Below, in pieces: positions 32,047-49,606 of a stretch of 64,000 nt of DNA. Source of the DNA: Hippopus hippopus (Eukaryota > Mollusca > Bivalvia > Cardiida > Cardiidae). The DNA lies in the NCBI GenBank assembly GCA_946811185.2, contig OX328103.1, positions 2,232,001-2,296,000 of the forward strand, read 5' to 3'. Both the position numbers and the translations under genes were made by a program. The number at the start of each line of letters is the position of its first letter. Within the stretch, counting starts at the first letter, position 1. Under the pieces are notes generated by a model. It was not told the DNA's origin. It saw only the letters and a list, made by a program, of their open reading frames with translations, and searched no databases.

Positions 32047-32052
32047 ACAGTT
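32047..32052 (+). repeat. Polinton target site duplication, left
   Basis: ACAGTT, repeated exactly at 49601-49606. Polinton integration makes 6-bp duplications. Confidence 0.9.
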
Positions 32053-33114
32053 AGTAGTAATTATGGCACTATGCAGGTCAAATTGCCTGCGGCACTATAG
32101 GGGCCAGGCCTTTGTCTTTGACAGTTCAGACTATTGTTAGAGGCCTTTGTCTGTTGGAGGTCAGACTGTCTGTGGCAATATGACGTAATCTTGCATACCT
32201 TTTGTCTGGCTTTCGTTGCCTCCCACCTGCCGAGGCTAGATGACAATTCCAAGCGTGTTTTGGCGCGTTTTGACCGATCAGGCCGGCGCCCGATTGTATA
32301 GAACCGAAAATTCAGCCAAAGCATTCGCCATTGAAAATGCATGAGAACTTTCTCTCAAAGAGGTTGCTCTACTAAAAATGCTTTTGTCTGTGAACGCTTT
32401 TACCCCCCTTACCATTCAAAGTCTAGGTTTTGTATTGACTTTAATGAATAAAATCGTATGGTGTTTAACGCCGTTTTCAACATTTTTGTTGCACTTAAGT
32501 CGCTGCGGCCAGTGCACCTATACATGCTTTCCAGCAGTATCTTTTACCAGGGCATCATTTTCTTTCCAAGTCACTGACTGCTGTCTCACATAACCATTAT
32601 TACGGTCAGCTGTGGTAGAGAAATAAATGGTTTCACAATTTTCAGTCCTCGACCTAGCCAGGGATCGAAGCCACGACCCATCTCAAGTCCTGCACGCTAG
32701 CTATTTAAGAGCTCAGCTTTTAGGTCCTCGCTTCTACATGGAAAAGTTTGCGAAAAACTTACTACGATCCCCAAATAGCGGTGGCATAATATAAAATTCC
32801 CTGTTGGTTTGATCATTAGCTTTCTTAGAAATTCTGATTTTTTTTTTTTATAATTCATGAGACCTTTCGATACTCTCCTGACAGAGTCGCATATCAAAAT
32901 GATTTAATGTTTGAGAAATGTCGACACTCTTCCACGTGATGTCTGGCGCGATTGTATAATATTCTCTGCAAAAATTCAGACAAAGCATTCGCCTCTCATT
33001 AAAAATGCATGAGAAAATGTCGATATTCTTACAAAATAGGTCGCTTTCCGCTGATTAAAATGCGTGATGTCTGGCGCGATTGTATAATATCGTCTGCAAA
33101 AATTCAGACAAAGC
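32053..33114 (+). repeat. Polinton left terminal inverted repeat
   Basis: Matches 48538-49600 inverted with only a few differences (one substitution in the outer 400 bp as read, plus homopolymer length). Contains a minus-strand tRNA-SINE at about 32449-32722 and, at its inner end, a 128-bp tandem repeat. The 93-aa minus-strand ORF near the tip is duplicated in the other repeat and is not considered a gene. Confidence 0.95.
32449..32722 (-). mobile_element. tRNA-SINE inside left TIR
   Basis: Tail GGTGTTTAACGCCGTTTTCA at the left, body CGCTGCGGCCAGTGCACC, B-box region CAGGGATCGAAGCC at about 32660, degenerate head. The same copy is in the right repeat. Confidence 0.8.
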
Positions 33115-33307: not shown

Positions 33308-33318
33308 TATATAAAAGG
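33308..33318 (+). promoter_or_regulatory. TATA box before the 33333/33390 ORF
   Basis: TATATAAAAGG. Initiation ~30 bp downstream would fall at about 33338, past the ATG at 33333, favouring the in-frame ATG at 33390. Confidence 0.6.
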
Positions 33319-33332
33319 CAAACGTTTTGTAG

Positions 33333-34715: not shown

Positions 34716-35065
34716 CCTTCAGTTTCAGTAAAAAGAAGAGGTGCCCAAAATTGAAATAAATATGCTGAAACAAACTTCGTCAATTTTTCTTTTCGAAATC
34801 CTCGATTTAACAATGTGCTACTTTTGTGCAACCAGACACTGTTTGATATTAAATCTAAAGTGACTTTTCCGTTTTGAAAAATTTAAAACATCTGCAGAAA
34901 AACACCTGGCTTTTAATTTTTGCATATATATGAACGTGTAAGTCTAATTTGTAACAATTGTTTACCTAATGTTACAAATTGCAATCAAGTTTTGAGTGAT
35001 AAAATCTTTTTGAATTTACGCCGAACGTCGATTTTCAACTTTTATCTCTATATGAGATAATTTGT
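34716..35065. other. Polinton spacer, no gene
   Basis: AT-rich spacer between the metalloprotease start and the 226-bp array; nothing recognised. A shorter gap of the same kind lies at 33678-34076. Confidence 0.5.
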
Positions 35066-36345
35066 CAGATAAAATGTCATTGAGCATGTTCTTATCATCT
35101 ATGATCAAATTCGAAAGTGAATTTCGTTTAAAACACGACAAAAACATCCATTTTTTGACCAAAGAAATGACTTTAGCGGATGCCTTTTACCCCGATTTCA
35201 TATATTGCATTCCATACAAGTGTTGCTGTATGTCATTTTAAATTAAGAAAAAAAAAAAAAAAATAGGTATAAAGGTATTAGAGATCACTTGTCAGATAAA
35301 ATGTCATTGAGCCTGTTCTTATCATCTATGATCAAATTCGAAAGTGAATTTCGTTTAAAACACGACAAAATCCATTTTCTGACTACAGAAATGACTTCAG
35401 CGGGTGTCTTTTACCCCGATTTCATATATTACATTACATACTGCTGTCGCTATATTTCATTTTAAATCAAGAAATAAAAAAAATTCAAATTAGGTATAAA
35501 GGTATTGGAGATCACTTGTCAGATAAAATGTCATTGAGCCTGTTCTTATCATCTATGATCAAATTCGAAAGTAAATTTCGTTTAAAACACGACAAAATCC
35601 ATTTTCTGACTACAGAAATGACTTCAGCTGATTTCTTTTACCCCGATTCCATATATTACATTACATACTGCTGTCGCTATATTTCATTTTAAATCAAGAA
35701 ATAAAAATTTTCAAATTAAGTATAAAGGTATTGGAGATCACTTGTCAGATAAAATGTCATTGAGCCTGTTCTTATCATCTATGATCAAATTCGAAAGTGA
35801 ATTTCGTTTAAAACACGACAAAATCCATTTTCTGACTACAGAAATGACTTCAACGGGTGCCTTTTACCCCGATTCCATATATTACATTACATACTGCTGT
35901 CGCTATATTTCATTTTAAATCAAGAAATAAAAATTTTCAAATTAGGTATAAAGGTATTGGAGATCACTTATTAGATAAAATGTCATTGAGCCTGTTCTTA
36001 TCATCTATGATCAAATTCGAAAGTAAATTTCGTTTAAAACACGACAAAATCCATTTTCTGACTACAGAAATGACTTCAGCGGATGTCTTTTACCCCGATT
36101 TCATATATTACATTACATACTACTGTCGCTATATTTCATTTTAAATCAAGAAATAAAAATTTTCAAATTAGGTATGAAGGTATTGGAGATAACTTGTTAG
36201 ATAAAATGTCATTGAGGCTGTTCTTATCATCTATGATCAAATTCGAAAGTAAATTTCACTTAAAACACGATAAAATCCATTTTCTGACTAAAGAAATGAC
36301 TTCAGCGGGTGCCTTTTACCCCGATTTCATATATTGTATGCCTGT
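35066..36345 (+). repeat. 226-bp tandem array upstream of PolB
   Basis: Six units starting (C/T)AGATAAAATGTCATTGAG at 35066, 35293, 35520, 35746, 35972 and 36198, period 226-227 bp. Each contains CTTATCATCTATGATCAAATTCGA and TTTTACCCCGATTYCATATAT. Partial ORFs through the units (90-95 aa) reflect the repetition. A regulatory or replication role is possible but unproven. Confidence 0.9.
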
Positions 36346-36399
36346 ATTAAATTAGTATATCTAAAAATAGCTCTTTCTCAAAACGAGGCTAATGGAGAG

Positions 36400-36407
36400 T
36401 ATATAAG
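36400..36407 (+). promoter_or_regulatory. TATA box of PolB gene
   Basis: TATATAAG 60 bp before the PolB ATG, leaving a ~30-nt leader. A CTGTTTTCAG just before the ATG may be incidental. Confidence 0.65.
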
Positions 36408-36459
36408 AAGACACACTCGGTAACATACCTATTCTGTTTTCAGATTTCAATCGAGCAAC

Positions 36460-39400
36460 ATGGACGCTGTGGCTGAAATAATGGACGTTATGATAATCTC
36501 TTATACGGATCCGGATGAGCTTATGGACTTTGCAACGACCATGGGGATCCAGGATTCCGTGTCTGTAAGACTTAGACTTTTCCAGCTGAGACAACAGGAA
36601 TATGATAATGAGTTTATCGAAGAACAAATGGACTTGGTGCTGCAAACCCTAGGTGGACGTATCCAGACTCCGGTTACTTTTAACGAGGAGGACATGGTCG
36701 TATCGCTAGAGTATGTACAAATACAGGAGGAAATTGATGGAGCTGTCAAAGCCCTTCTTTTTGATGACGATATGAACGAGACAGCAAGGTTGTGTTTGGA
36801 AGATGGTGATTGGGACGATCCATTTGTTCAGACAGGGGGAGGGGAAGAGCCACGGGCGGGACCCTCCGGTCTACAGAACGATCTTTTTGATGACGATATG
36901 AACGAGACAGCAAGGTTGTGTTTGGAAGATGGTGATTGGGACGATCCATTTGTTCAGACAGGGGAAGGGGAAGAGCCACGGGCGGGACCCTCCGGTCTAC
37001 AGAACGACAACAAACTGAAATACACAATGAGAAAGAAGGACACCCGCACATATGCCAAAAATGCAGCAATAGATACAACATATCAAGTAAAATTGGATGA
37101 GCAGTACAATGGTCAGCGGTTAATAGACGTGAGGCAGGGACTTCATGACATGATCCAGGCAGCCCTTAACGAGGCCCGAGGACACCTACAGGGGAATGAT
37201 CTAGGTCGTGTCGTGATATATCACGATGCTTTGCACAACCCTGTTGTCGTCCCTTTACAGAAGTGGGATACCCTTGACGCTAATAGAGTTATGGAGATCC
37301 TCGAAAAGGTACTCAATAGTAACCAGGAACTTTCGATCGATGAGACCTTTGATATAATAATAGGGACCATTGACCTACCTAAAGGAGGCAAGCGAAAACA
37401 TATCATACGTATTAAAGGTGAAAACACTTCATTGGATTTAAAACGCTCGGTAGTGACTATTGAGAATGAAGATAAAATGTGTATGGCAAGGGCCATTGGA
37501 GTCAGCTGGGCAAAATTAAAGAGGTGTACCAAGGAAGAATGGGAGGAGGTAACGAAAAACAGACAGGGAAAAAGTAGCTTGGAGTTGGTTTTAGAATATC
37601 AAAAAGTCCCCTTGTCTTACTATAACGACCTTGTCAAAAAGAAGAAGAAACACCAAGGACAGCTGGCAAGGGCTCTGTGTAAGATGGCAGGCGTACCCAT
37701 AGACCGAACAGCTAGTCTCAACGATGTGGAGGCATTTGAGGAAATCCTAGGAGTACGCGTGATGGTCATCAGCGCTCGCCTAGGCAATAAATTTATTACT
37801 GGTCCTAGCAGTGACGGGCGTCCCTGTATCTACGTGTACTTGGTGGACGACGACCACTTTCATGCCATAACAAACATCACTGGGTTTTTTAGCGACTCCT
37901 ATTTTTGTGAAAAATGTCTCAAACACTATAGTAATAGGGAATATCACCAGTGTGCAGAAAAATGTATAGTGTGCAAGAGGGACCACTGCCCTAAAACGAA
38001 CAAGACTCTGAGGTGCACAGATTGTAACATGGACTGTAGGTCAGATGATTGTTACAAACAACACAAGAAAGTACCCTTACACAAAAATGGAAGGAGAAAA
38101 GGTCAACCCAGTGGGCCTTCCCAGTGTGAAAAGTGGTGGAGGTGTTTCAGGTGTTACAAGGTACTAAGGACGGACATAAGGAAGAAGGAGGACCATGTAT
38201 GTGGGGAATACTTTTGTAAGACTTGTAAAAAGTATGTGTTGGACGATCATCAGTGTTATTTAAGAGCGAAAGAATGTAAGGACAAGTTTATACCTAAATA
38301 TATATTTTTTGATTTTGAGTGTAGTCAGGATGATATGAGTGAGTGCGAGAATGGATACATACCGCAAAAGAAAATAGAATGCGCAGATTGTCAACCATCA
38401 CAGGTATGTAAGTCTTGTTCTAAGTGTAAAAACTGCAACACGTCATGGTGCGGTAGAACTACGCATCGTCCCAACTTTGTCTTAGCTCATTCGGTATGCC
38501 CAAAATGTATTGACAATGAATTGACTGCCAAATCAGTATGTAAGAGATGCGGTAGCCGTTGTAAAAAATGTCAAAAAAATCTGGATGAGAAAGATTTGGG
38601 ACCTTGTCCAGGGACATGTGGCTTTAGAGAAGTCACTTTCCAGGGACATGATACTGCTGAACAGTTTGGGCAATGGTTATTTACGGAACAACACGAGTAC
38701 TGCAAGGTGGTTGCTCATAACATGAAAGGTTATGACGGTTACTTTCTGCTAGAGTACCTCGTTGATCAGTCATTACGGCCAGACAAAATTATTTACAACG
38801 GGTCCAAGATAATGTACATGACAGTAGAGCGAGACTTACATATCAAGGTAATAGACAGTCTTAACTTCTTACCCATGAAACTGTCAGCATTACCCAAAGC
38901 ATTTGGTTTACATGAATTGAAAAAAGGGTGGTTCCCACATTATTTTAATACCAGAGAGAATCAAAATTATGTTGGGCCCTACCCTGATGCTAAAGATTAT
39001 GGTTACGATTTCATGGGTGAGAAAGAAAGAAGCGAGTTAGTAGAGTGGTTGAAACAGAGACAGTGTGAAGTTTTTGATTTTAGAAAAGAGATGTTAGAAT
39101 ATTGTAGAAGTGATGTTGATATATTGAGACAAGCATGTTTGAAATTTAGATATTTGTTAATGAATGCAACGGGAGAAGAAAAAGAGGTCATAAATGGAAA
39201 GGGAAAGACTGAAAAAAGGTGGTTTGGGGCCGTAGATCCTTTCGACAGTGTTACGATTGCATCAGTATGCATGAATGTGTTTAGAAGTAAATTTCTAGAA
39301 GAAAAGTGGAAGGTACAATTGTATTGCACTGATGAATGGATCCCAGCCAAACTATGTGAGGGAGTATTGTATGTACTGGTGAAAGATGAATGGGTGAGTG

Positions 39401-41235
39401 CAGCAAAATTGAAAGTCAAGGGTAAAGAATTTGTAAGCACCCCGATAGCAAAGATTCCTCCCAGTGGATACAAAGAACAATACAGTAAGGTGTCAATTCA
39501 GTGGTTAGAGTGGCGAGCGCTTACAGACCATGTACACATTCAGCATGCACTGAATGAAGGTGAAAAAAAGATACCAGGAACACGATACAAATTAGATGGA
39601 TATTGTGAAGAAACACACACAGCATACGAGTACCACGGATGTGTGTTTCACGGATGCCCTGTGTGTTTCCCAGACAAACGAGAGGACACGTATCACCCCC
39701 TCACCAATCAATCACTGAATGAATTGTATGCTCTGACTCTAAAAAAGAAAGCATACCTCGAGCAATTAGGCATGAAGTATGTGTGTATTTGGGACCATGA
39801 CTTCAAAAAATTAAAGGACGAAAATGAAGAACTCAAAGAATGCATTGCACAATTAGATGTAGCTGACCGATTAGATCCAAGAGAGAGTTTCTTCGGAGGG
39901 CGCACTAATGCCAGTCAACTCTATTACAAAACCAAAGAACATGAACAGGTCAAATACGTAGACTTTACAAGTTTGTACCCTTGGGTGAACAAGTATTGTC
40001 GGTATCCCGTAGGTCACCCCAAAATCTTGACCAAAGACTTCGGGAAGCTTGAGGAGTATTTTGGTATTGCCAAAATAAAGACATTACCCCCGAGAGGGCT
40101 GTATCATCCAGTCCTCCCCTATAGATCAAATGGCAAACTGAAATTTCCTCTATGTCGTACCTGTGCGGATACCGAGAATCAAGATTCATGTACATGTTCT
40201 TCTGAAGACAGGGTTTTAATTGGCACGTGGTGCATCCCCGAGATAAAAACGGCTCTAAGACTGGGTTACACACTAGAAAAAATATATGAAGTATACCACT
40301 GGGAGGAAACAACACAGTATAATCCTGAGACGGGTGATGGGGGGTTATTCGCCAAGTATATCAACACGTTTTTGAAATTTAAGCAAGAGGCGAGTGGCCC
40401 TCCTGATTGGGTCAAAACGAAACAAGACATGACAAAATACATGGAAGATTATCATAAAAAAGAGGGTGTATTGCTGGATCAAAACAGCATTGTAAAAAAC
40501 CCTGGCAAAAGAGCTCTGGCCAAACTTTGTCTCAATAGCTTTTGGGGTAAGTTTGGACAGAGACTCAATATGCGTCAAACCAAAATATATCACGAGAGTC
40601 AAGCAAACTTATTTTTTCAAGTATTTTCTGATCCTACAAAAGAGCCTCTGAACTTTCATATACTCTCAAATGATATGATACAAATAGAGTGGATTTATAA
40701 ACATGACTTTCACCCCGAAGACAACGAAACAAACATTTACTTGGCGACCTTTACAACATGTTGGGCCCGATTAAAATTGTACAGTGTGCTCGAAAAGTTG
40801 AATAAAAGAGTGTTGTACTACGACACGGACTCTGTCATTTACGTGAGTAGACCCGGAGAGTTTGATCCTCCCTTAGGGGACTACTTGGGTGAGTTGACGG
40901 ATGAACTGGAGCAAGGAGAGCATATTGTAGAATTTGTGTCAGGAGGTCCAAAGAATTACGCATATAAGACCAGTACCAACGAGGAAACATGTAAGGTCAG
41001 AGGGTTTACTTTGAACTACACTAATAGCAAACTAATCAATTTTGAAGCCGTGAAAGCTATAGTAACAGATTCAAAAAGTAGTTCAAATATTGTTGTAACC
41101 AACCCATGTAAAATATGTAGAGACAAAAGAAAGAGGAAATTGTATAATAGAGAAGAAAAGAAAAGTTATCAAATGGTGTATACAAAGCGAAGGAAACTAG
41201 ACAATTATGACACTGTACCATATGGATATGACTGA
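36460..41235 (+). CDS. POLB: protein-primed family B DNA polymerase
   Basis: 1591-aa replicative polymerase of the element, expected to start synthesis from a protein primer. Exonuclease motifs: FFDFECS (D618, E620), AHNMKGYDGYF (D759), YCRSD (D885). Polymerase motifs: A DFTSLYP (D1168), B KLCLNSFWGKFG (K1355, N1359), C YYDTDS (D1455, D1457). A cysteine-rich block lies at about residues 487-600 and a second one between exo I and exo II. Residues about 1050-1110 (AYEYHGCVFHGCPVCFP, then the LKKKAYLEQLG stretch) match a segment conserved in Polinton polymerases, possibly nuclease-like. The N-terminal ~330 residues are acidic and poorly conserved and contain a 42-aa tandem duplication (DNA 36757-36882 and 36883-37008, one mismatch). 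Start fixed by TATA box and first ATG. Confidence 0.95.
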   Translation: MDAVAEIMDVMIISYTDPDELMDFATTMGIQDSVSVRLRLFQLRQQEYDNEFIEEQMDLVLQTLGGRIQTPVTFNEEDMVVSLEYVQIQEEIDGAVKALLFDDDMNETARLCLEDGDWDDPFVQTGGGEEPRAGPSGLQNDLFDDDMNETARLCLEDGDWDDPFVQTGEGEEPRAGPSGLQNDNKLKYTMRKKDTRTYAKNAAIDTTYQVKLDEQYNGQRLIDVRQGLHDMIQAALNEARGHLQGNDLGRVVIYHDALHNPVVVPLQKWDTLDANRVMEILEKVLNSNQELSIDETFDIIIGTIDLPKGGKRKHIIRIKGENTSLDLKRSVVTIENEDKMCMARAIGVSWAKLKRCTKEEWEEVTKNRQGKSSLELVLEYQKVPLSYYNDLVKKKKKHQGQLARALCKMAGVPIDRTASLNDVEAFEEILGVRVMVISARLGNKFITGPSSDGRPCIYVYLVDDDHFHAITNITGFFSDSYFCEKCLKHYSNREYHQCAEKCIVCKRDHCPKTNKTLRCTDCNMDCRSDDCYKQHKKVPLHKNGRRKGQPSGPSQCEKWWRCFRCYKVLRTDIRKKEDHVCGEYFCKTCKKYVLDDHQCYLRAKECKDKFIPKYIFFDFECSQDDMSECENGYIPQKKIECADCQPSQVCKSCSKCKNCNTSWCGRTTHRPNFVLAHSVCPKCIDNELTAKSVCKRCGSRCKKCQKNLDEKDLGPCPGTCGFREVTFQGHDTAEQFGQWLFTEQHEYCKVVAHNMKGYDGYFLLEYLVDQSLRPDKIIYNGSKIMYMTVERDLHIKVIDSLNFLPMKLSALPKAFGLHELKKGWFPHYFNTRENQNYVGPYPDAKDYGYDFMGEKERSELVEWLKQRQCEVFDFRKEMLEYCRSDVDILRQACLKFRYLLMNATGEEKEVINGKGKTEKRWFGAVDPFDSVTIASVCMNVFRSKFLEEKWKVQLYCTDEWIPAKLCEGVLYVLVKDEWVSAAKLKVKGKEFVSTPIAKIPPSGYKEQYSKVSIQWLEWRALTDHVHIQHALNEGEKKIPGTRYKLDGYCEETHTAYEYHGCVFHGCPVCFPDKREDTYHPLTNQSLNELYALTLKKKAYLEQLGMKYVCIWDHDFKKLKDENEELKECIAQLDVADRLDPRESFFGGRTNASQLYYKTKEHEQVKYVDFTSLYPWVNKYCRYPVGHPKILTKDFGKLEEYFGIAKIKTLPPRGLYHPVLPYRSNGKLKFPLCRTCADTENQDSCTCSSEDRVLIGTWCIPEIKTALRLGYTLEKIYEVYHWEETTQYNPETGDGGLFAKYINTFLKFKQEASGPPDWVKTKQDMTKYMEDYHKKEGVLLDQNSIVKNPGKRALAKLCLNSFWGKFGQRLNMRQTKIYHESQANLFFQVFSDPTKEPLNFHILSNDMIQIEWIYKHDFHPEDNETNIYLATFTTCWARLKLYSVLEKLNKRVLYYDTDSVIYVSRPGEFDPPLGDYLGELTDELEQGEHIVEFVSGGPKNYAYKTSTNEETCKVRGFTLNYTNSKLINFEAVKAIVTDSKSSSNIVVTNPCKICRDKRKRKLYNREEKKSYQMVYTKRRKLDNYDTVPYGYD
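36757..37008 (+). repeat. 126-bp in-frame duplication in PolB
   Basis: Two adjacent 126-bp copies encoding FDDDMNETARLCLEDGDWDD and onward to GPSGLQN. One base differs (GGA versus GAA), so the duplication is recent. Confidence 0.95.
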
Positions 41236-41274
41236 TGTAATTTTTTTTTTTGTTCGTGGGTTGTTCAATGTCAA

Positions 41275-41475
41275 TCATTTTTCAAAAAAAGGTGTTAGTC
41301 ATTTTTCAAAAAGTGTCACTCATTTTTCAAAAAGTGTCACTCGTTTTTACGTTTTTATACTTTTACAGGTAAATTCCCATAGGGTCTGTTTCAAAAAGTG
41401 TCACTCATTTTCCTAAAAGTGTCACTCATTTTCAAAAAAGTGTCACTCATTTTCTTAAAAGTGTCGCTTATTTTT
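41275..41475 (+). repeat. GTGTCACTCA short repeat cluster
   Basis: About seven copies of TTTTTCAAAAAGTGTCACTC (about 20 bp) in two blocks, 41275-41348 and 41390-41475, between the PolB stop and the next gene. Could bind a factor or act in the 3' UTR; not a known terminator. Confidence 0.85.
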
Positions 41476-41531
41476 CTAGATACCAACTGTTGTTTATTTT
41501 ATTTGTTAACGTGATAATTGTATTGCTTATA

Positions 41532-41537
41532 AATAAA
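41532..41537 (+). terminator. candidate poly(A) signal for PolB
   Basis: AATAAA, about 300 bp after the PolB stop and just before the next ORF. Confidence 0.45.
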
Positions 41538-41590
41538 AAATTGTAAGAATGAGTTTCTTTTTGTGTTTTGAGTTAATCTAACGTAAGAAT

Positions 41591-41851
41591 ATGACAGAAA
41601 CTCCCGAAAAAGAAACGTTTTTACATTTCCCTAAACCTGACGAAGAAAGCCATAGTGACAAGTGGCATTTACTGGGCACCCGTGTCCCCCAAGCAGAGAT
41701 TGTCTACTTTTGTCAGATGATCATAGTGTACATCATTATTATTACGTCCATCATTAACCTATCAGTGCAAAACGGGTCGACCGAGCTTTGGGTATCACTC
41801 TTGAGTAGCAGTATCGGGTACGCTTTGCCTAACCCTAGACTTAAAAAATAA
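41591..41851 (+). CDS. small membrane protein
   Basis: 86 aa. A charged, proline-containing N terminus (~35 residues) is followed by a strong hydrophobic helix (VYFCQMIIVYIIIITSIINL) and a weaker second one (ELWVSLLSSSIGYAL). Starts ATG after CGTAAGAAT. The stop overlaps the ATPase start as TAATG, which implies co-expression with packaging. Function unknown; a virion membrane or packaging-anchor role is a guess from position. Confidence 0.7.
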   Translation: MTETPEKETFLHFPKPDEESHSDKWHLLGTRVPQAEIVYFCQMIIVYIIIITSIINLSVQNGSTELWVSLLSSSIGYALPNPRLKK

Positions 41852-42504
41852 TGGCCGTCCCTCTTCCATTCGAACCATGTTCTAGTATGTGTATTAGCGG
41901 ACAAACTGGTAGTGGTAAAACCCAATGGGTGTACCGCTTTTTGAAACAAGTAAACCTCATGTACGGACGGGACCCCCCTTCTCATATTCTCTATTGCTAC
42001 GGTATCCACCAAGACTTGTTTGATGTCATGGAGAGTTCCATTCCAAACTTTGACAGTAAGCAAGGACTACCTACTGCAGAAGAATTGGATGACTTCACAA
42101 GAGACAAAAAACACAAGTTAATCATTTTAGACGACCTAATGCACGAGGTCATGCGGAGTAAAGAAATGGAGTTACTGTTCACCCAAGGCTGCCATCACAG
42201 AAAAGTATCGGTGATTATGATCACACAAAACTTATACCCTGGGGGTAAACATGCCAGAACTATAGCTTTGAATACATGGTATCTGGTGCTTATGAAAAAT
42301 ATTCGTGACATATCTCAAGTAGGAGTGCTAGGACGGCAGCTTTATCCCGGTAAATCCGGAGTGTTTATGAAGGCTTACGAAGATGCCCTTAATACGAGAC
42401 ACGGCTATTTCATAGTGGACATGTCCCCTTACTCCGACGACAAGTACCGTTTAAGGACTCGTATATTTCCCAACGAAGATCCTATTGTGTACCGTTTGAC
42501 GTAA
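41851..42504 (+). CDS. ATP: A32/FtsK-HerA-like DNA packaging ATPase
   Basis: 217-aa ATPase expected to pump element DNA into capsids. Walker A GQTGSGKT at residues 17-24, Walker B LIILDD ending D94-D95, sensor-like VSVIMITQN (N at about 127) and a C-terminal arginine-rich stretch. Length and motif order fit Polinton and related viral packaging ATPases. Begins inside the stop of the upstream membrane-protein gene (TAATG). Confidence 0.92.
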   Translation: MAVPLPFEPCSSMCISGQTGSGKTQWVYRFLKQVNLMYGRDPPSHILYCYGIHQDLFDVMESSIPNFDSKQGLPTAEELDDFTRDKKHKLIILDDLMHEVMRSKEMELLFTQGCHHRKVSVIMITQNLYPGGKHARTIALNTWYLVLMKNIRDISQVGVLGRQLYPGKSGVFMKAYEDALNTRHGYFIVDMSPYSDDKYRLRTRIFPNEDPIVYRLT

Positions 42505-42536
42505 GAATGGAAATAAATAGCTTATAAGAATACAAT

Positions 42537-42860
42537 ATGGTAGAACTAATTAAACAGCAACGTCACTTTTTATATTTAGTGGCCAACACTACAGCCGACC
42601 AGAGAAAAGCGCTTTTAAAAACTATTACCCGTCAACAGCTAAGGGCGCTTAGTCAAATTGCGTACAACATTATCCGGTTCAAAGGTAGATTGACACTTAC
42701 GGAAAAAGCCACCTTAAAGAGGCAGAGACGCTTTATTTACTTGCTTGGAGATCGTAACACGGGGTTTGTTAAAAAGAAGGAAGCTATCCAACATAAACAA
42801 CGTATTATCCATACATTGGTGAAGATTGCTTCAGCCTACTTACAACCCGTATTACAGTAA
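42537..42860 (+). CDS. small basic helical protein, copy A
   Basis: 107 aa, strongly basic and helical, with LLKTITRQQLRALSQIAYNI and a later basic KKKEAIQHKQRIIHTL segment. This is a pattern I recognise from many Polinton and adintovirus genomes, where it is a conserved protein, possibly a DNA-binding core protein. It is paralogous to the ORF at 45205-45576 on the other strand. Preceded by TTATAAGAATACAAT; its stop overlaps the next ATG (TAATG). Confidence 0.75.
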   Translation: MVELIKQQRHFLYLVANTTADQRKALLKTITRQQLRALSQIAYNIIRFKGRLTLTEKATLKRQRRFIYLLGDRNTGFVKKKEAIQHKQRIIHTLVKIASAYLQPVLQ

Positions 42861-43048
42861 TGGAGAAATATGTATTAGTGCCTTTCGAAAAGTTTGAGCG
42901 ATTGAAAAAACTATCTGGGAGACAAGATGATCAGCAGAGAGAGGAAAGGGAAGATACCTCGAAAAAGAAGAATAAGAAATTAACACTATTTCCTCCGGGA
43001 CTTAGAGAGAAGAAACGAAAGAAAGATATAGACTGGATTTCTTATTGA
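42860..43048 (+). CDS. small lysine-rich protein
   Basis: 62 aa: MEKYVLVPFEKFERLKKL head, glutamate/lysine-rich middle, then LFPPGLREKKRKK and a DWISY end. The head-plus-PPG arrangement is typical of a small conserved Polinton ORF. Overlaps the preceding stop by TAATG, so expression with copy A is likely. Function unknown. Confidence 0.6.
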   Translation: MEKYVLVPFEKFERLKKLSGRQDDQQREEREDTSKKKNKKLTLFPPGLREKKRKKDIDWISY

Positions 43049-43178
43049 ATAACGACTCGACAATTTCATGATTTTATATTTTTATTAACAGAATAATACA
43101 ATAAAAGTATAAAAGAAGGCATGAGTCATTGTGTGTGTGTGTGTGTGGTTTTTTTTTTTTTATTATTTCCCTCCGTAT
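43049..43178. terminator. convergent gene junction with poly(A) signals
   Basis: Plus-strand AATAAA at 43100-43105 and minus-strand AATAAA at 43081-43086 (TTTATT), with a GT microsatellite at 43131-43147. Plus-arm and minus-arm transcripts end here. Confidence 0.6.
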
Positions 43179-44441
43179 TTATTGTATATACACATTTCTC
43201 GCTTTATCGATTGTAAGTATTTCTGGAAAGGTAGCGTACAGCAACAATGTCACACTCTCTGGTAAAGGTTTAGCAAATTTGATTTCCAAACGGCAAAGAC
43301 CTCTTCTTTTTGTGTTGAAAGAATAGTAGGGATCGATATCCAGCACATATAGGCAGTATCCTTGCTTGTACTCTTTGTATGTGATGTTGATATCATTTCT
43401 ACAGGAAGTGAGGGTCTGATAACAGTCGGTGAAATGATTTCCTTCAAAATTAGGTTGCAAAGGTTGCGATGGTACGGATTGGCCATCAACGAAGAAACCG
43501 AGGTAACTGCAGTCGTAATGTTTCAGGTTGAATGGGTTTGTTTTGTAGTCTCCGTTATATGAAACGCTCGCAACCGTCCCTATGATGATTTTGTTTGGCA
43601 CCCTACCTTGAAATATATCGTCTGCGTGAAAACTATATTGTCCTTGCGCTATCGAGGTTGTTTTTATCTCTGAGCGGAAATATGGGTACATAGCGGGAGT
43701 GTCCTGAATCATTTTGTCGTGAGCCAGAAGCAAATCGTTCTGTAACCGCTGAATACAGAGCTTGAAACGGGCGTCAACGATTTGCACCTTGTAATTCGGA
43801 GTAAACGCATCTGTAATGATTCGAAAGGCATCGGATGCTTGCCAAAATTTAAGCCCCATTTGCACTCCGTTAATAAGCAACTTGGGTTGTTGAAACAAGT
43901 CCACCGGGATACTTCCTTCCAGATCTATAATTTTACCACCCTTGGTCTTTTCATATCTTTGGAATAAACCGGTATTTGATCCAGTTTTGGGGTCGCTATC
44001 GTCCAGATTCCGATAATCCTTGTAGAATAATTGACTGGTCAGAAAAGCTTCCTGTATAGATTGATTGGTATTTAATAAGGTGTCAATGTAGGTCTTATAC
44101 GGATGCGTGGTTCCGCTATTCGGGAGTGGTTTTTGTTGTAAATGAATGTCCAGCTGTCTGAAAATGGTGTGCAAAGGTAAATTGATAAGTCCCAGCGTAT
44201 CATCTTCTGACACGGGTGTACCGTCTTGTAAAGCGAGTCTCAATTTCACCCTCAATTTACATTCCTTCAAGTTGATGTAGGCGCTGGCCTGTGGCGGTAT
44301 ATTAAATTCCAAGCTCGATGAAGAATCGGTTACCGGATTAATGGGTCGGAATTCGATCCAATCTTTCGATAACAAGGACGAATCTTTTGGGATCGGATTA
44401 AATAACGATAATTCTTCACTGTGCTGAATTTTACTATTCAT
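43179..44441 (-). CDS. MCP: double jelly-roll major capsid protein
   Basis: 420 aa. Matches the Polinton/adintovirus hexon-like family, also known from the nematode protein F54H12.2. Recognisable stretches include a start with EFRPINPVTDSSSSLEFNIP, AYINLKECKLRVKLRL, LPLHTIFRQLDIHL and a TYIDTLLN helix, and CRLEIKFAKPLPESVTLLLY near the end. The family forms a double jelly-roll capsomer. It is the last gene of the right-arm array, starting 9 bp after the stop of the preceding coiled-coil gene. Confidence 0.88.
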   Translation of the reverse strand: MNSKIQHSEELSLFNPIPKDSSLLSKDWIEFRPINPVTDSSSSLEFNIPPQASAYINLKECKLRVKLRLALQDGTPVSEDDTLGLINLPLHTIFRQLDIHLQQKPLPNSGTTHPYKTYIDTLLNTNQSIQEAFLTSQLFYKDYRNLDDSDPKTGSNTGLFQRYEKTKGGKIIDLEGSIPVDLFQQPKLLINGVQMGLKFWQASDAFRIITDAFTPNYKVQIVDARFKLCIQRLQNDLLLAHDKMIQDTPAMYPYFRSEIKTTSIAQGQYSFHADDIFQGRVPNKIIIGTVASVSYNGDYKTNPFNLKHYDCSYLGFFVDGQSVPSQPLQPNFEGNHFTDCYQTLTSCRNDINITYKEYKQGYCLYVLDIDPYYSFNTKRRGLCRLEIKFAKPLPESVTLLLYATFPEILTIDKARNVYIQ

Positions 44442-44450
44442 GCTAATTTT

Positions 44451-44795
44451 TCAAAACGCCCAGTCGGGATCTTTGCGATACGTTTTGTGAGTCTTCTTAC
44501 GCTTGATATTCTTACGATCTTCGTCAACACCGTTCTTACGTTTTATTTGAGATTTTGCCCTATCAACTACTTCGGCTAATGGGCTCACCATTTTTACCTG
44601 AGGAGTTTTGACTTTTTCAAGTTTTTCTTCCATATCTCGCAGCAGTTTATTCTTTTCTTCTAGTATTTTCTCCAAATTCCTTATTTGATCTGGGATGTGG
44701 TCTTTCGGTTTAAAATAATCAATCCAATACTCCACATCTTCTTTGTACGGAACCCACTTCTGTAGTTTTGAATCAAAGACGTCTATGGAACCCAT
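44451..44795 (-). CDS. coiled-coil virion-type protein
   Basis: 114 aa. N-terminal VFDSKLQKWVPYKEDVEYWI is a phrase common to a small Polinton protein family. Then a coiled coil at about residues 37-65 (IRNLEKILEEKNKLLRDMEE) and a lysine-rich C terminus. Overlaps the minor capsid gene upstream by 13 bp. A scaffold or capsid-associated role is inferred from position only. Confidence 0.65.
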   Translation of the reverse strand: MGSIDVFDSKLQKWVPYKEDVEYWIDYFKPKDHIPDQIRNLEKILEEKNKLLRDMEEKLEKVKTPQVKMVSPLAEVVDRAKSQIKRKNGVDEDRKNIKRKKTHKTYRKDPDWAF

Positions 44796-45208
44796 GATTT
44801 CTTGAAATGAAGGACACAGTGAAAATCGTTCGAATTCAAATCAATCGGTTTTAAATCTTCGCCTTTTAACGACAGCCTAATAGTGTTAAATTTCTTGACA
44901 CTCACGGGTCTATAACGTCGATGAAGACATTCCGTAAATTTAAATTTCTTGTATCTTGTTTCGATTTCTATATTGGTGAGAACGGGTTGTAACTTATTCC
45001 TGACAAACGTTTCCTCTATAATGTCACAATTCAAATACAACCGCTTACTTTGAGGTGTAAAGTCGCAGGTCAATGACGATTCTACCAGAGCACATAACCA
45101 ACTTCCTTCTAAAATATAGTCCTTAGAAAACTGGAACAAGAAATCTGCGTTATTCTTACGTATATCGATAGATTCTGCGGAATTTAAATACAAGTAAAAC
45201 TCTGTCAT
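44783..45208 (-). CDS. penton-like minor capsid protein
   Basis: 141 aa. Starts FYLYLNSAESIDIRKNNADF, then an LEGSWLCALVESSL strand, YLNCDIIEETFV, and ends FHCVLHFKK. This strand order is that of Polinton minor capsid (single jelly-roll penton) proteins. Its ATG overlaps the upstream stop (ATGA), and its 3' end overlaps the coiled-coil gene. Confidence 0.8.
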   Translation of the reverse strand: MTEFYLYLNSAESIDIRKNNADFLFQFSKDYILEGSWLCALVESSLTCDFTPQSKRLYLNCDIIEETFVRNKLQPVLTNIEIETRYKKFKFTECLHRRYRPVSVKKFNTIRLSLKGEDLKPIDLNSNDFHCVLHFKKSWVP

Positions 45209-45576
45209 TCTTCTCTCCTTGTTCTCAATTGGTCTAGTATAGTAGGAATGAGATAAACTGGGCGTAATAAAATGGGTATAAATGAATGAAATCGTCGAAG
45301 TAAAGTCTTCTTTCGGGTTGATGAAACGTTATTTGAGCATAGTGTGCGTAACAATAGTCTCCTTCTTTCAAAAACTTGAACATCTCTTCTCATTGGATTA
45401 ATGACTCCATTAAGTATACGTTTTGCCACCTCGATGATAGCCTTTAGTTGACGATTCGTTAAATTCTGCAGTAAATTCTTCCTTACCGTTGTTTCGGTCT
45501 CTTGTAGGTGAAGTAAATAAGCGATTTGTAAATAGACTGTAGAGTGTTCCATGATTGAATCGGTTAAAATACTCAT
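45205..45576 (-). CDS. small basic helical protein, copy B
   Basis: 123 aa, paralogue of the 107-aa protein at 42537-42860: NLLQNLTNRQLKAIIEVAKR, then FERRRLLLRTLCS and RKKTLLRRFHS. Conserved in Polintons and adintoviruses, likely nucleic-acid-binding. ATG overlaps the TBP-like stop (ATGA) and its stop overlaps the minor capsid ATG (ATGA). Having two paralogues in opposite arms is unusual. Confidence 0.75.
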   Translation of the reverse strand: MSILTDSIMEHSTVYLQIAYLLHLQETETTVRKNLLQNLTNRQLKAIIEVAKRILNGVINPMRRDVQVFERRRLLLRTLCSNNVSSTRKKTLLRRFHSFIPILLRPVYLIPTILDQLRTRREE

Positions 45577-46136
45577 TCCTTCTTACGCGTATAGAGTTCG
45601 AGTTCAATTAGTGTGGGACAAACAATCTCGTCCTCTTTTTGTGAAGAGGTTACACCCGTTATGACCACTTTCCCTGTATGAAAACAACAAAAATGCACCC
45701 CTTCCCTTTTAAAGTTAAGAGAAGGAAATAACTGGGGTTCGTATACGACATCTTTATCGACAGACAAACGCTTCAAATCCAAATCCGAACTGAGGGTATG
45801 GCTCATAGACATGGTTAAAAGTTTCACGTCCGATAAATTCACTGGATATCCACAATTCTGTATCAGTCTCGCATATTTCCGTATTCGTTCGTACCCCTCT
45901 CTTTTACTCGAAACTTTGCCGTTACAGTTGATAATACCGTTAGAAAACACTAAACAGTTTCCTCCAGCTTTTCTGTGTTGCCATATCAGTCCGGGAAATC
46001 GTGCTGGATCATACCGTACATTCGTTATTTTGGAGCAGAGTTGTCTTAAATCAATAGGACAGTTGAGTTGAGCGCTGTAAAGCACGTTTGTGATGATCAT
46101 GATCGTTTGTCTGTCTAGACATAAATGATAGAACAT
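45573..46136 (-). CDS. TATA-box-binding protein (TBP) homologue
   Basis: 187 aa, or 175 if it starts at M13 (46100). Two direct TBP repeats at about residues 14-103 and 104-183. Repeat 1 has NVRYDPARFPGLI, CLVFSNGIINCNGK and IRKYARLIQNCGYPV; repeat 2 has YEPQLFPSLNF and CCFHTGKVVITG. All four phenylalanines that intercalate TATA DNA in eukaryotic TBP have equivalents: F47, F64, F137, F152. The N-terminal extension of cellular TBP is absent. Expected to bind TATA DNA and nucleate RNA polymerase II initiation, presumably on the element's own TATA promoters. Lies between integrase and the basic protein, in the same direction. A TATA box lies 25 bp before the first ATG. It is not a spliced host pseudogene: the frame is intact and the sequence well diverged. 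TBP is not among the Polinton core genes I know. Confidence 0.9.
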   Translation of the reverse strand: MFYHLCLDRQTIMIITNVLYSAQLNCPIDLRQLCSKITNVRYDPARFPGLIWQHRKAGGNCLVFSNGIINCNGKVSSKREGYERIRKYARLIQNCGYPVNLSDVKLLTMSMSHTLSSDLDLKRLSVDKDVVYEPQLFPSLNFKREGVHFCCFHTGKVVITGVTSSQKEDEIVCPTLIELELYTRKKE

Positions 46137-46153
46137 TGCTAGTTTTCAGCCTC

Positions 46154-46161
46154 TTTTTATA
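46154..46161 (-). promoter_or_regulatory. TATA box of TBP-like gene
   Basis: TATAAAAA on the minus strand, 25 bp before ATG 46136. Start ~30 bp downstream would favour translation from M13, where the TBP fold begins. The gene could be autoregulated. Confidence 0.65.
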
Positions 46162-46172
46162 TTCTCGGTTGT

Positions 46173-47285
46173 TTACGAGTATTGCTTAATATCAGTTTCC
46201 GGTATCCAGCTGTCATACTTTTTTGGCCAGTGTAACCAGCGCACCAGGACTTCCTGTTTCTTATTGCGTGTCCTTCTTTTCAAAATTTTTTCGATGCTAA
46301 AGTCGGTACCGTCGTCAACGTTTATGGCTTGTAATTCTTGTTCGTAAAATGTACCATCAATTTCATCGTTGTCCCAGTCTACTAACGTGTAAATTGGAAG
46401 TCCTTGTCTTTTGAAACGTGATCTGATTTTGAAAATCTCCCCTGTCCATTTTTGCGAGTATTCTCTGTCAAATACGGACCTGATGTGTGACAATCGTACA
46501 GTCTGGCCGATTTTATATTTGAATTTTTTTATAACGGGCTTTTCCCCTTTGCTTCCTTTGGTTCTAATGAGATACTGTTGAAGACGACTTTCCCCTTCAT
46601 TTTTCACGGAAATTGCTGCTGGGTTTTCTCCAAGACTCCTGTGGTGAGTGTGATTGTAACTATGTACAAAATCCTGTAAAATGTCAATGTATCTACTAGT
46701 TCTGTTTTTGAGCAGGTATCGAAAAATCTTGTGTTTTAGCGTTTTAATAACTCTTTCCGCGTAATTTGCTTTTGTTTCCGTATTATATGCGTACATATGA
46801 TGTATACTTTGACTATTTAAATATTTATTTACTTCTTTACTTCTAAATTCCATTCCTCTGTCCGTACGAATTGTGTTTGGCTTTTTGGGGCCTGTCAGTA
46901 TACGTTTCAATGCCATGACTACATCAGCGCCTCGCTTACTCTTAACAGGTTGAGCATAAAGAAAACGAGAAAATACATCGATAACAATCAAAATGTATTT
47001 CACACCTTCGTTATGCTTCTGTAAATTGGCCATGTCCATAAGATCCATGTCCCATTGACTGTCGATGCCATTTACAATCACCCTGGAACGTTTAAAGCGG
47101 CGTCTAGCACCCCTGGTCAGAGAATACGCTTCTTGATTCTGCAACCATTGGCGTATTCTGTGCCTGCCAATTTTGTATTTACCCTCGTCTTTAACATGTT
47201 GATAGAGTTTTTCAGGACCACCATAGCTAGCGGGAGATTTTAAGTCAAAATACAAAGAAGACAAATATTGTTGCCAGTCAGACAT
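46173..47285 (-). CDS. INT: retrovirus-like integrase with chromodomain
   Basis: 370 aa, inserts the element. Integrase core: WDMDLMDM (D81), IRTDRGMEF (D142), NYAERVIKTLKHK (E177), a D-D-x34-E triad, with IDVFSRFLYAQPVKSK between. The helical N-terminal part has PEKLYQHVKDEG-like sequence and no obvious zinc ligand set. C-terminal chromodomain at about 331-369 (FSIEKILKRR, VRWLHWPKKYDSWIPE) with aromatic residues for methyl-lysine reading, which may guide insertion to particular chromatin. Typical Polinton arrangement. Confidence 0.93.
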   Translation of the reverse strand: MSDWQQYLSSLYFDLKSPASYGGPEKLYQHVKDEGKYKIGRHRIRQWLQNQEAYSLTRGARRRFKRSRVIVNGIDSQWDMDLMDMANLQKHNEGVKYILIVIDVFSRFLYAQPVKSKRGADVVMALKRILTGPKKPNTIRTDRGMEFRSKEVNKYLNSQSIHHMYAYNTETKANYAERVIKTLKHKIFRYLLKNRTSRYIDILQDFVHSYNHTHHRSLGENPAAISVKNEGESRLQQYLIRTKGSKGEKPVIKKFKYKIGQTVRLSHIRSVFDREYSQKWTGEIFKIRSRFKRQGLPIYTLVDWDNDEIDGTFYEQELQAINVDDGTDFSIEKILKRRTRNKKQEVLVRWLHWPKKYDSWIPETDIKQYS

Positions 47286-47497
47286 GTTTATTTATTACAT
47301 AGACATCCATACATTCTTACTACATCAAATAGAAATAGTAAATAGAGAGGTTTCTTTCGTTTTCTATATACAAGCCAACGAGCCTTTCAACACCCTCCGC
47401 GGCGTCTCTTCGCAATTGTCTGTATTTCAACCACAATTCGAAGTCATTCATTGTTGTCACAAATATAAGAATGAGTCCGAACATGTTCACATCGGTT
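47286..47497. other. Polinton spacer
   Basis: Between integrase start and the BIR gene stop. Contains GTAAGAATGT (minus strand) near 47310, a motif repeated before other ORFs of the element. Confidence 0.4.
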
Positions 47498-47887
47498 TTA
47501 GAAAAAGGCTGAATTCAAAGCACTCCAGTTATATGTAGAACCGTCACGGGACAATCTTCCATTGGTAACAGACGCGTTTCGTTGTGTATCACACCTTGAA
47601 GTGATTTGACTCGTGTATCCCGTCATTTTCAAATATATACAGGACGGAGACCATTTCTCGTGCTCTTCCCAAGGATCGTCCTTTTCCTCCCATGACATTA
47701 TGTTGACACCACAGGCAAAACACGTCACTTTATCCGCAGTACCGGTGTAAAAGAAGCCCGCTTTTGCTAATGACCATTTCTCAGGCTTTATTTGCTTCGA
47801 CCAGTGCTCATACGTTTGTAGTCTATCTTCACATAACATCAAGGCTGGCTTCGAATATGCAGTCACTTTTGTAGAATCTTTGAACAT
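47498..47887 (-). CDS. BIR-domain (IAP-type) protein
   Basis: 129 aa with one complete baculoviral IAP repeat at about residues 21-88. Zinc ligands C56, C59, H76, C83 fit C-x2-C-x16-H-x6-C, with RLQTYEHWS at the start and GFFYTG in the middle. No RING or second BIR. Cellular and viral BIR proteins bind caspases or their antagonists and can delay apoptosis; here capture from a host IAP gene is inferred. The low-complexity tail after residue 90 is unrelated to known IAPs. Confidence 0.88.
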   Translation of the reverse strand: MFKDSTKVTAYSKPALMLCEDRLQTYEHWSKQIKPEKWSLAKAGFFYTGTADKVTCFACGVNIMSWEEKDDPWEEHEKWSPSCIYLKMTGYTSQITSRCDTQRNASVTNGRLSRDGSTYNWSALNSAFF

Positions 47888-47929
47888 GGTGCTTATTAAT
47901 GTGATGTTAATTCTGTCAATCGCGCCTAT

Positions 47930-48415
47930 TTACCAGTTTCCGTTATCGTTAGGGTTACATTCAGAACACCGCAACGCCCCTAACTGGTTCATATGATCAC
48001 TTTGAAGGTAACAGGGAATGACAGCGTCCAACTCGGGTAGATTCCTACCAATCTCTGACACGTGTTTTTTAAGAGAGTTATATTCAGCGGGTCTTAAGCA
48101 GATACCCTTTTTGGTCGGTACCACTTCATTGTCTGGTTTCCAATACTGTCTTATATCTACACAAACGCTGTTTTCACCGATACTGCAATAAACGTTTCCT
48201 CCTAGGTGAGCGCTGTATGCTTTTTTACCGTGTAATGCTTGATCAACAAACTCAGAGGCATCTACCAAATTCTTCCATCTCATAAGCGTAAGACTAATGC
48301 CTTTCTTAGTAGGTATGTCTTCCTGCCATTCCCTGATATCGACTCTCAGTTCACCCCTCCATTCACTGACCTGTACGTAGCGTTCGTTACCGAGACTAAA
48401 TTTACATCTAACCAT
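47930..48415 (-). CDS. tandem PC4/Sub1-domain protein
   Basis: 161 aa containing two PC4-like units. Unit 1 (residues about 5-52): FSLGNERYVQVSEWRG, LRVDIREW, then PTKKGISLTLMRWKNL. Unit 2 (about 73-121): NVYCSIGENSVCVDIRQYW, then VPTKKGICLRPAEYNSL. These reproduce the PC4 pattern of two beta strands, DIREYW, and RKGISL followed by a helix. Cellular PC4/Sub1 dimerises, binds single-stranded DNA and promotes RNA polymerase II initiation; two units in one chain could form an intramolecular dimer. A C-terminal C135, H141, C150, C153 group could bind zinc. TATA-like CTATATTAG lies about 55 bp before the ATG. Roles in transcription with the TBP homologue, or as replication ssDNA-binding protein, are both possible. 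Confidence 0.82.
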   Translation of the reverse strand: MVRCKFSLGNERYVQVSEWRGELRVDIREWQEDIPTKKGISLTLMRWKNLVDASEFVDQALHGKKAYSAHLGGNVYCSIGENSVCVDIRQYWKPDNEVVPTKKGICLRPAEYNSLKKHVSEIGRNLPELDAVIPCYLQSDHMNQLGALRCSECNPNDNGNW

Positions 48416-48468
48416 GTTGCTGATTCGAGTGTCAAAACTCTTATGACTCCAAACACGAAATTCAGCTT

Positions 48469-48477
48469 TCTAATATA
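48469..48477 (-). promoter_or_regulatory. TATA-like box of PC4 gene
   Basis: CTATATTAG on the minus strand, spaced from its ATG much as the PolB TATA box is (about 55-60 bp). Confidence 0.45.
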
Positions 48478-48537
48478 GTCACAAAGTCTCTTCTGATTGG
48501 TCAGTTTGTTTTTTCCATCTGACCAATTGATTATTCG

Positions 48538-49600
48538 CTTTGTCTGAATTTTTGCAGACGATATTATACAATCGCGCCAGACATCACGCATTTTAATCAG
48601 CGGAAAGCGACCTATTTTGTAAGAATATCGACATTTTCTCATGCATTTTTAATGAGAGGCGAATGCTTTGTCTGAATTTTTGCAGACGATATTATACAAT
48701 CGCGCCAGACATCACGTGGAAGAGTGTCGACATTTCTCAAACATTAAATCATTTTGATATGCGACTCTGTCAGGAGAGTATCGAAAGGTCTCATGAATTA
48801 TAAAAAAAAAAAAAATCAGAATTTCTAAGAAAGCTAATGATCAAACCAACAGGGAATTTTATATTATGCCACCGCTATTTGGGGATCGTAGTAAGTTTTT
48901 CGCAAACTTTTCCATGTAGAAGCGAGGACCTAAAAGCTGAGCTCTTAAATAGCTAGCGTGCAGGACTTGAGATGGGTCGTGGCTTCGATCCCTGGCTAGG
49001 TCGAGGACTGAAAATTGTGAAACCATTTATTTCTCTACCACAGCTGACCGTAATAATGGTTATGTGAGACAGCAGTCAGTGACTTGGAAAGAAAATGATG
49101 CCCTGGTAAAAGATACTGCTGGAAAGCATGTATAGGTGCACTGGCCGCAGCGACTTAAGTGCAACAAAAATGTTGAAAACGGCGTTAAACACCATACGAT
49201 TTTATTCATTAAAGTCAATACAAAACCTAGACTTTGAATGGTAAGGGGGGTAAAAGCGTTCACAGACAAAAGCATTTTTAGTAGAGCAACCTCTTTGAGA
49301 GAAAGTTCTCATGCATTTTCAATGGCGAATGCTTTGGCTGAATTTTCGGTTCTATACAATCGGGCGCCGGCCTGATCGGTCAAAACGCGCCAAAACACGC
49401 TTGGAATTGTCATCTAGCCTTGGCAGGTGGGAGGCAACGAAAGCCAGACAAAAGGTATGCAAGATTACGTCATATTGCCACAGACAGTCTGACCTCCAAC
49501 AGACAAAGGCCTCTAACAATAGTCTGAACTGTCAAAGACAAAGGCCTGGCCCCTATAGTGCCGCAGGCAATTTGACCTGCATAGTGCCATAATTACTACT
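48538..49600 (-). repeat. Polinton right terminal inverted repeat
   Basis: Inverted match to 32053-33114. Inner end has about 1.4 units of the 128-bp repeat (CCAGACATC at 48577 and 48705). Contains the SINE copy at about 48940-49206. Confidence 0.95.
48940..49206 (+). mobile_element. tRNA-SINE inside right TIR
   Basis: Mirror of the SINE at 32449-32722: TTCGATCCCTGGCTAGG B-box region, GGTTATGTGAGACAGCAGTC, tail GGCGTTAAACACCATACGAT. Confidence 0.8.
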
Positions 49601-49606
49601 ACAGTT
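49601..49606 (+). repeat. Polinton target site duplication, right
   Basis: ACAGTT, identical to 32047-32052. Confidence 0.9.

Follow-up and report, generated by a model that had tools for sequence, protein, structure and literature searches.

Boundaries and gene content of the element

The window, a 64,000-nucleotide stretch of the genome of the bivalve Hippopus hippopus (contig OX328103.1 of assembly GCA_946811185.2, positions 2,232,001 to 2,296,000), contains a Polinton of 17,548 bp at positions 32053-49600. The element has the end features of Polintons/Mavericks, namely, long terminal inverted repeats (TIRs), a 6-bp target site duplication (TSD), and AG...CT ends. The TIRs are inverted repeats of 1,062 bp that are 99.5% identical and start with AGTAGTAA. 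The genes and other features are as follows (window coordinates, strand, description).

32047..32052, plus: left TSD, ACAGTT, direct repeat flanking the element
32053..33114, plus: left TIR, 99.5% identical to the right TIR; tandem 128-nt units run on to ~33318
36400..36407, plus: TATATAAG box, 60 nt upstream of the family B DNA polymerase (PolB) gene
36460..41235, plus: PolB, 1,591 aa (Pfam DNA_pol_B_2, 5.4e-46)
41591..41851, plus: orf86, hydrophobic, no assigned role; a similar ORF was seen by eye at locus L054
41851..42504, plus: packaging ATPase, A32-like (Pfam Pox_A32, 1.5e-6)
42537..42860, plus: orf107, no assigned role; a similar ORF was seen by eye at locus L055
43179..44441, minus: major capsid protein (MCP), double jelly-roll, 420 aa (AF2 model compared with the Sputnik and mavirus MCPs)
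44451..44795, minus: orf114, no assigned role, between the capsid gene and orf141
44783..45208, minus: orf141, no assigned role, between orf114 and orf123
45205..45576, minus: orf123, no assigned role; its ATG overlaps the stop of the TATA-box-binding protein (TBP) gene (ATGA)
45573..46136, minus: TBP ORF, 187 aa (175 aa from the likely start, Met13, at 46100)
46154..46161, minus: TATAAAAA box, 61 nt ahead of Met13 of the TBP ORF
46173..47285, minus: integrase, rve core and chromodomain, 370 aa (Pfam rve, 5.6e-14; Chromo, 3.2e-9)
47498..47887, minus: BIR (inhibitor-of-apoptosis type) protein (Pfam BIR, 8.7e-25)
47930..48415, minus: PC4-like protein, close to the right TIR, in which Pfam PC4 matches two stretches (2.7e-27)
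48470-48477: TATA-like box ahead of the PC4 gene, behind CCAATCAG
48493-48500: CCAATCAG ahead of the PC4 gene, conserved among copies
48537..49600, minus: right TIR, partner of the left TIR
49601..49606, plus: right TSD, ACAGTT, direct repeat flanking the element

Of the Polinton gene set, the element encodes PolB, a retroviral-type integrase, an A32-like ATPase, and a double jelly-roll MCP. Together with the chromodomain of the integrase, the TIRs, and the 6-bp TSD, these genes align the element with adintovirus-like Polintons/Mavericks, from which it differs in the extra TBP and PC4 genes and in that Pfam recognized no adenain or adenovirus-type cysteine protease among the 15 window ORFs scanned. 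The AF2 model of the capsid protein (pLDDT, 79.1) retrieved the MCPs of Sputnik (1.3e-14) and mavirus (2.3e-14) from the PDB in a Foldseek search, and among its matches in BFVD were capsids of virophages as well as a protein of Adintovirus sp. that bears the name penton capsid. The product of orf141 is a possible minor capsid protein, and orf86 had no Pfam match at an E value of 0.1.

Several further features of the sequence were recorded. The TBP gene, orf123, orf141, and orf114 (44451-46136, minus strand) are joined by stop/start overlaps of a few bases, an operon-like arrangement that is unusual in a eukaryote; in one relative, P0110, the end of the TBP runs straight into a relative of orf123 within a single ORF. 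A unit of ~226 nt is present in six tandem copies ahead of PolB (35049-36454), tandem repeats of a 21-nt GTGTCACTC type occupy ~41266-41495, and the right flank of the element (56215-63177) contains pieces that by eye resemble a host cytochrome P450 gene.

The initial annotation had reported, with no strand given, a 187-aa ORF with both TBP repeats at positions 45573..46136. The ORF is present on the minus strand, and the same stretch contains 9 stops in frame 1 of the plus strand. The Pfam TBP profile (PF00352) matches it in two stretches (E = 2e-26), which rules out a chance ORF, and phmmer against the PDB finds human TBP at 8.5e-20. Residues F47, F64, F137, and F152, proposed as equivalents of the intercalating phenylalanines, align with human F197, F214, F288, and F305, and the ORF also contains YEPQLFP and TGKVVITG. 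The saddle fold of TBP is clear in the predicted structure and in its alignment to the PDB, with 24 to 28% identity to eukaryotic TBPs in structure alignments. Translation probably starts at Met13 (46100), because many relatives begin there and it is preceded, at 61 nt, by a TATA box. The gene had also been described as lying intact between the integrase and virion genes; it is intact and has the integrase (46173-47285) on one side and the capsid block (43179-45576) on the other, with the correction that the genes directly downstream are the 123-, 141-, and 114-aa ORFs, after which the capsid gene follows. The suggestion that a Polinton TBP is undescribed stands only within the open-access literature searched: among the matches listed for Polinton/Maverick with TBP or TATA, no Polinton TBP appeared in titles or abstract openings, and the available portions of PMC11071296, PMC11071308, and PMC8905726 contained no match for "TATA."

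Relatives, genomic copies, and selection

In a large protein collection, 111 relatives of the element TBP were found, including one cellular-type TBP (P0111), and a profile search yielded 350 protein clusters, of which the best 120 were examined. The few named relatives are proteins of Mercenaria mercenaria and proteins from assemblies of the bivalve symbionts Sedimenticola and Thiodiazotropha, the latter taken as host DNA. One M. mercenaria protein (P0039), annotated as TATA-box-binding protein-like 1, is 62% identical to the window Polinton TBP and for that reason is probably misannotated. For linkage to capsid genes, 153 TBP clusters were compared with 120 capsid clusters for an exactly equal longest contig. 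Nine pairs were found. Eight of them lie on contigs of 3.8 to 13.3 kb; the ninth is on a 3.6-Mb contig and does not demonstrate nearness of the two genes. When the sizes were shifted by 1 to 60 as a control, the mean was 0.87 pairs with a maximum of 4; for contigs of at least 3 kb, it was 0.25 with a maximum of 2. Two of the pairs carry neighboring locus tags (ABW072_02025/02035 and N0E59_22775/22760).

The host genome (1.07 Gb, 34 contigs) was scanned for TBP, and 150 of the 217 candidates were scored. At least 150 full-length matches are present; 147 of the 150 lack an internal stop, a proportion in which intact copies are over-represented because only the best candidates were scored. An identical score is shared by 79 of the 150 copies, so that the spread looks recent. 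From the 149 rows that remained after exclusion of the host exon, 20 copies of differing score were sampled for synteny. By identity, 8 of these belong to a window-like subfamily A and 10 to a subfamily B, with TBPs 86 to 89% identical; the other two are L025 and L027. Downstream of TBP, orf123, orf141, orf114, and the capsid gene are found in 20/20 copies (the capsid gene being a 63-aa piece in L025 and 238 aa long in L022). The integrase precedes TBP in 19 of the 20, in pieces in L021 and L013. PC4 is present in 18/20 and BIR in 8/20, the subfamily A copies.

A capsid scan of the host genome with a Solemya capsid query gave 733 candidates and 99 matches, and at least 88 of the 99 lie within 6 kb of one of the 166 TBP positions used. 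That the 11 capsid copies without a listed TBP lack the gene was considered and rejected: two were opened, and one of them, L055, does have a TBP. This locus represents a distant family with, in this order, an integrase, a TBP (87/172 residues identical to that of the window), ORFs of 114, 149, and 126 aa, and a capsid gene. At L054, no TBP was found in the 3.5 kb ahead of the capsid gene, and at L002, a Solemya velum symbiont contig, none lies between the integrase and the capsid gene. Thus, TBP belongs to some Polinton families and not to all. Its place inside the Polinton and its presence in the same gene order in related Polintons bear out the original reading of the gene as element encoded and speak against its absence from every related element.

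Locus L002 (NZ_JRAA01000003.1) was the only match of the capsid scan in GTDB contigs, at a contig end. This contig of the S. velum gill symbiont ends in Polinton genes, namely, an integrase, a capsid gene, and a protein with a weak adenovirus-protease match (E = 0.069), which represent host contamination, a chimeric assembly, or transfer. In the place of TBP, it encodes a protein with a weak PC4 match that fails the cutoff (E = 0.051) and that matched the window PC4 protein at 2e-7 in a single BLASTP comparison. The TBP scan of GTDB contigs found none, and neither the single-protein TBP scan nor the capsid and integrase scans of IMG/VR gave a confirmed match. One locus from an alignment scan of IMG/VR (L001) was rejected as a haloarchaeal-type virus contig with, by its ORF reading, an archaeal-type TBP and not a Polinton.

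The element protein does not closely match the TBP of its host. The host's own TBP exon shares 56/59 residues with human TBP and 18/59 with the element protein. In a tree of 40 element rows and 6 cellular or archaeal-type rows, a set without TLF/TRF or giant-virus TBPs, the element rows form one side of a branch of length 2.0 with support of 100/100. Between the window TBP and subfamily B copies L011, L012, L013, and L017, dN/dS is 0.20 to 0.26 over 175 codons. The comparison with L011 comprises 19 replacement and 23 silent changes, which gives a binomial P value of 3e-6 against neutrality (expected replacement share, 0.782). Against the same four copies, dN/dS is 0.08 to 0.10 for the capsid gene, ~0.12 for the integrase, 0.48 to 0.57 for orf123, and ~0.08 to 0.09 for PC4, where silent sites are near saturation. 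Within subfamily A (L018, L022, L024, and L030; 12 to 23 changes), dN/dS of TBP is 0.27 to 0.42, it is 0.50 against the odd copy L025, and the A pair L018-L024 differs by 9.2 replacement versus 0.8 silent changes. These values show purifying selection between subfamilies A and B; they do not show it for the youngest copies.

Predicted DNA-contact and TFIIB-contact faces

Residues (human TBP numbering unless noted) were counted in 130 of 151 relatives, those of 160 to 220 aa; the 21 of other length were dropped, and P0110 and P0111 had been excluded beforehand. Apart from the positions tabulated for KSHV ORF24, the roles given for the numbered DNA and TFIIA residues are those presumed for TBP in general. 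The intercalating phenylalanines are kept in most relatives (F197 in 127, F214 in 128, F288 in 106 with H in 15, and F305 in 120), and all four are present in 40/40 aligned genomic copies, which represent 39 distinct loci. The spacing between F288 and F305 is two residues shorter than in cellular TBP. N167 and T313 are retained in 122 relatives each, as are, for the most part, the basic residues of helix 2 (R235 in 117 and R239 in 124). Other basic residues are altered, R203 to Q in 93 and R208 to G in 118, and E191, which we take to be a TFIIA contact, is replaced by R in 110.

Unlike the cellular TBPs of eukaryotes (a TFIID subunit) and archaea, the Polinton proteins are encoded by a mobile element and are changed across the residues that read TATA in the minor groove. 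V220 is replaced by N in 93 relatives and by Q in 21, T222 by N in 96 and by Q in 21, N257 by T in 126, V259 by S in 120, V301 by N, H, or T in 128, and L303 by C, S, N, or T in 124; the canonical set formed by these six residues is absent in most of the 130. With the DNA-contact face so much changed, a TATA box is not necessarily what the protein would bind. Judged from these residues, the site of the element TBP is probably not plain TATAAA; the altered face could reflect either a site other than TATA or a weak hold on DNA. A yeast TBP of altered specificity (TGTAAA) is reportedly changed at I194, V203, and L205, and all three positions (yeast numbering) are altered in most of the element TBP relatives. 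In the available part of one review, three second-repeat changes in TBP are linked to TGTAAA (PMC10005294).

The TFIIB-contact residues are mostly conserved. E284 is E in 109 and D in 6 of the 130 relatives, E286 is E in 122 and D in 5, and L287 is L in 90 and I in 33. The family thus mostly keeps both TFIIB glutamates (yeast E186 and E188); the window copy keeps the first and has Q at the second, a position that is Q in 16, E in 23, and R in 1 of the 40 aligned genomic rows (39 distinct loci).

The closest comparison for the DNA face is with the herpesvirus TBP mimic, ORF24 of KSHV, a component of the vPIC. In the accessible portion of its description, ORF24 carries N in place of yeast V122 and T124 and S in place of L205, together with a polar-rich interface beside the phenylalanines (PMC12529657). 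As far as that portion goes, both proteins combine retained phenylalanines with a polar DNA face, and the Polinton TBPs have similar residues at V122, T124, and L205 (mostly N/Q, N/Q, and C/S/N, respectively). In the same partial comparison, N159 and V161 are N and N in ORF24 and T and S in the Polinton TBPs, L114, V213, and T215 are changed in ORF24 and kept in the Polinton TBPs, and the TFIIB glutamates are missing from ORF24 and mostly kept in the Polinton TBPs. Furthermore, the Polinton protein consists of the TBP core alone, unlike ORF24. Because most of the 130 relatives keep the glutamates, the element TBPs were not classed as ORF24-like and the DNA face alone was compared; the resemblance, at the level of residues, is partial.

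Large DNA viruses are already known for TBPs, often with their own TFIIB. In giant viruses and mirusviruses, TBP is likewise virus encoded, in genomes far larger than a Polinton, and structural matches to the element TBP in BFVD include proteins of Heterosigma akashiwo virus 01 and Terrestrivirus. According to the portions of the sources available, TBP is present in 59% of mirusvirus genomes (PMC10132985) and is sporadic in the mirusvirus-like elements of an alga (PMC10675990). According to the available part of Ravarani et al. (PMC7221094), the TFIIB glutamates are frequently altered in viral TBPs, and a TFIIB-like protein is encoded by almost all of the viruses concerned. Compared with the viral TBPs described there, the Polinton family mostly keeps the glutamates, and Pfam recognized no TFIIB among the 15 element ORFs scanned.

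Promoter sequences and the proposed role of the element TBP

In the window, TATAWA was sought 25 to 100 nt ahead of six gene starts chosen as heads of gene runs. It is present at four of the six (shuffle P = 0.006), namely, PolB (-60), orf86 (-63), TBP (-61 from Met13), and the integrase (-85), and was not found at the BIR and PC4 starts. The TBP box (TATAWA within 110 nt ahead of Met13) recurs in 18/20 copies, at -59 to -65 and once at -45; it reads TATAAAAAG in subfamily A and TATATAAGG in subfamily B, and the sequence ahead of it looks unrelated between the two. L025 and L027 have no TBP box, and none was seen by eye ahead of TBP in L055. Neither the integrase box nor the orf86 box is conserved in the copies compared, and the PolB box is present in the A copy L053 and absent from the B copy L052 (in L051, the PolB start was not found). 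Ahead of PC4, TATATTAG, TATATAAC, or TATAAAAG lies behind the conserved CCAATCAG in the 9 copies compared with the window. A TATA rule for all element genes was therefore rejected, as it fails for the integrase, orf86, PolB in L052, and TBP in L055. A TATT rule, of the kind that governs the late promoters driven by ORF24-like proteins, was not supported either, with TATTWA ahead of 2 of 7 gene starts versus 0.67 expected, which is not clearly above expectation. The string GTAAGAAT recurs 11 times in the window against 3.75 expected, with some occurrences in coding or TIR sequence and two outside the element.

The interpretation that we favor, with a probability of roughly 0.6, is that the element carries its own TBP to assemble host RNA polymerase II (Pol II) on element genes. 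The element TBP would use phenylalanine intercalation to bend a specific TATA-like site, probably off the consensus, in the promoters of the element. Its C-lobe would recruit host TFIIB, and host Pol II would thereby be assembled on element genes, making the element less reliant on host TFIID and the control that goes with it. The TBP gene heads the overlapping or abutting gene run that ends in the capsid gene, which suggests joint expression, and, because the gene heads this tightly packed array, the use might be mainly in virion production. The redirection of Pol II to element promoters, raised in the initial annotation, is what we infer from the mostly kept TFIIB-contact residues; against it stand the much altered DNA face and mixed promoter evidence, and the existing TATA boxes could also be read by host TBP. 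More tentatively, the system could act as a private switch, in which a re-tuned TBP with host TFIIB and Pol II, perhaps aided by PC4, turns on the virion genes from a private promoter element; such a switch would have arisen independently of the herpesvirus late-gene system and would partly resemble it.

It is unlikely that the protein instead serves as an antagonist or decoy that occupies TFIIB, TFIIA, or host promoters and so lowers or biases host transcription, with element genes relying on host TBP at their TATA boxes. The changed DNA face, the canonical TATA boxes ahead of some element genes, which could be served by host TBP, and the replacement of E191, the presumed TFIIA contact, by R in 110/130 relatives would all suit such a role, but four intercalating phenylalanines in 40/40 copies (39 loci) are more than a mere TFIIB sponge needs. 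Use of the TBP fold to bend DNA in packaging, replication, or integration and not in transcription would fit a gene that adjoins the integrase and capsid genes; it is nevertheless quite improbable, given that the TFIIB glutamates, needless for bending alone, are mostly kept (E284 in 109 and E286 in 122 of 130). TBP is common to Pol II and Pol III, and Brf1 and Brf2 retain the residue through which one of these glutamates is contacted, in the available part of the source (PMC7221094); yet the element genes are long protein genes, and action with a Brf-type adaptor and Pol III is accordingly very doubtful. A chance, recent, and functionless capture of host TBP can be dismissed in view of the 18/59 match to a host exon that itself matches human TBP at 56/59, the separation of the 40 element TBPs as one group by a branch of length 2.0, the dN/dS values between subfamilies, which are well below 1, and the conserved synteny.

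Under the favored reading of Pol II assembly by an element-encoded TBP, a small animal Polinton equipped with a bare TBP that is under selection, and of which one genome contains at least 150 copies, would offer a simple natural example of one-factor re-targeting of Pol II. The 350 clusters form a natural set of TBP variants that can be used to study how TBP reads DNA; in the 130 relatives examined, the DNA face is changed and the TFIIB contacts are mostly conserved. The family also provides a way into the study of how animal Polintons are transcribed.

Separately, the cellular-type relative P0111 (Caenorhabditis nigoni B9Z55_011165) is a predicted protein that combines the end of a Polinton-type capsid protein (24% identity over 171 columns) with a fused TBP, for which identity to human TBP is 62% over 142 residues; it is either a separate capture or a gene-model artifact.
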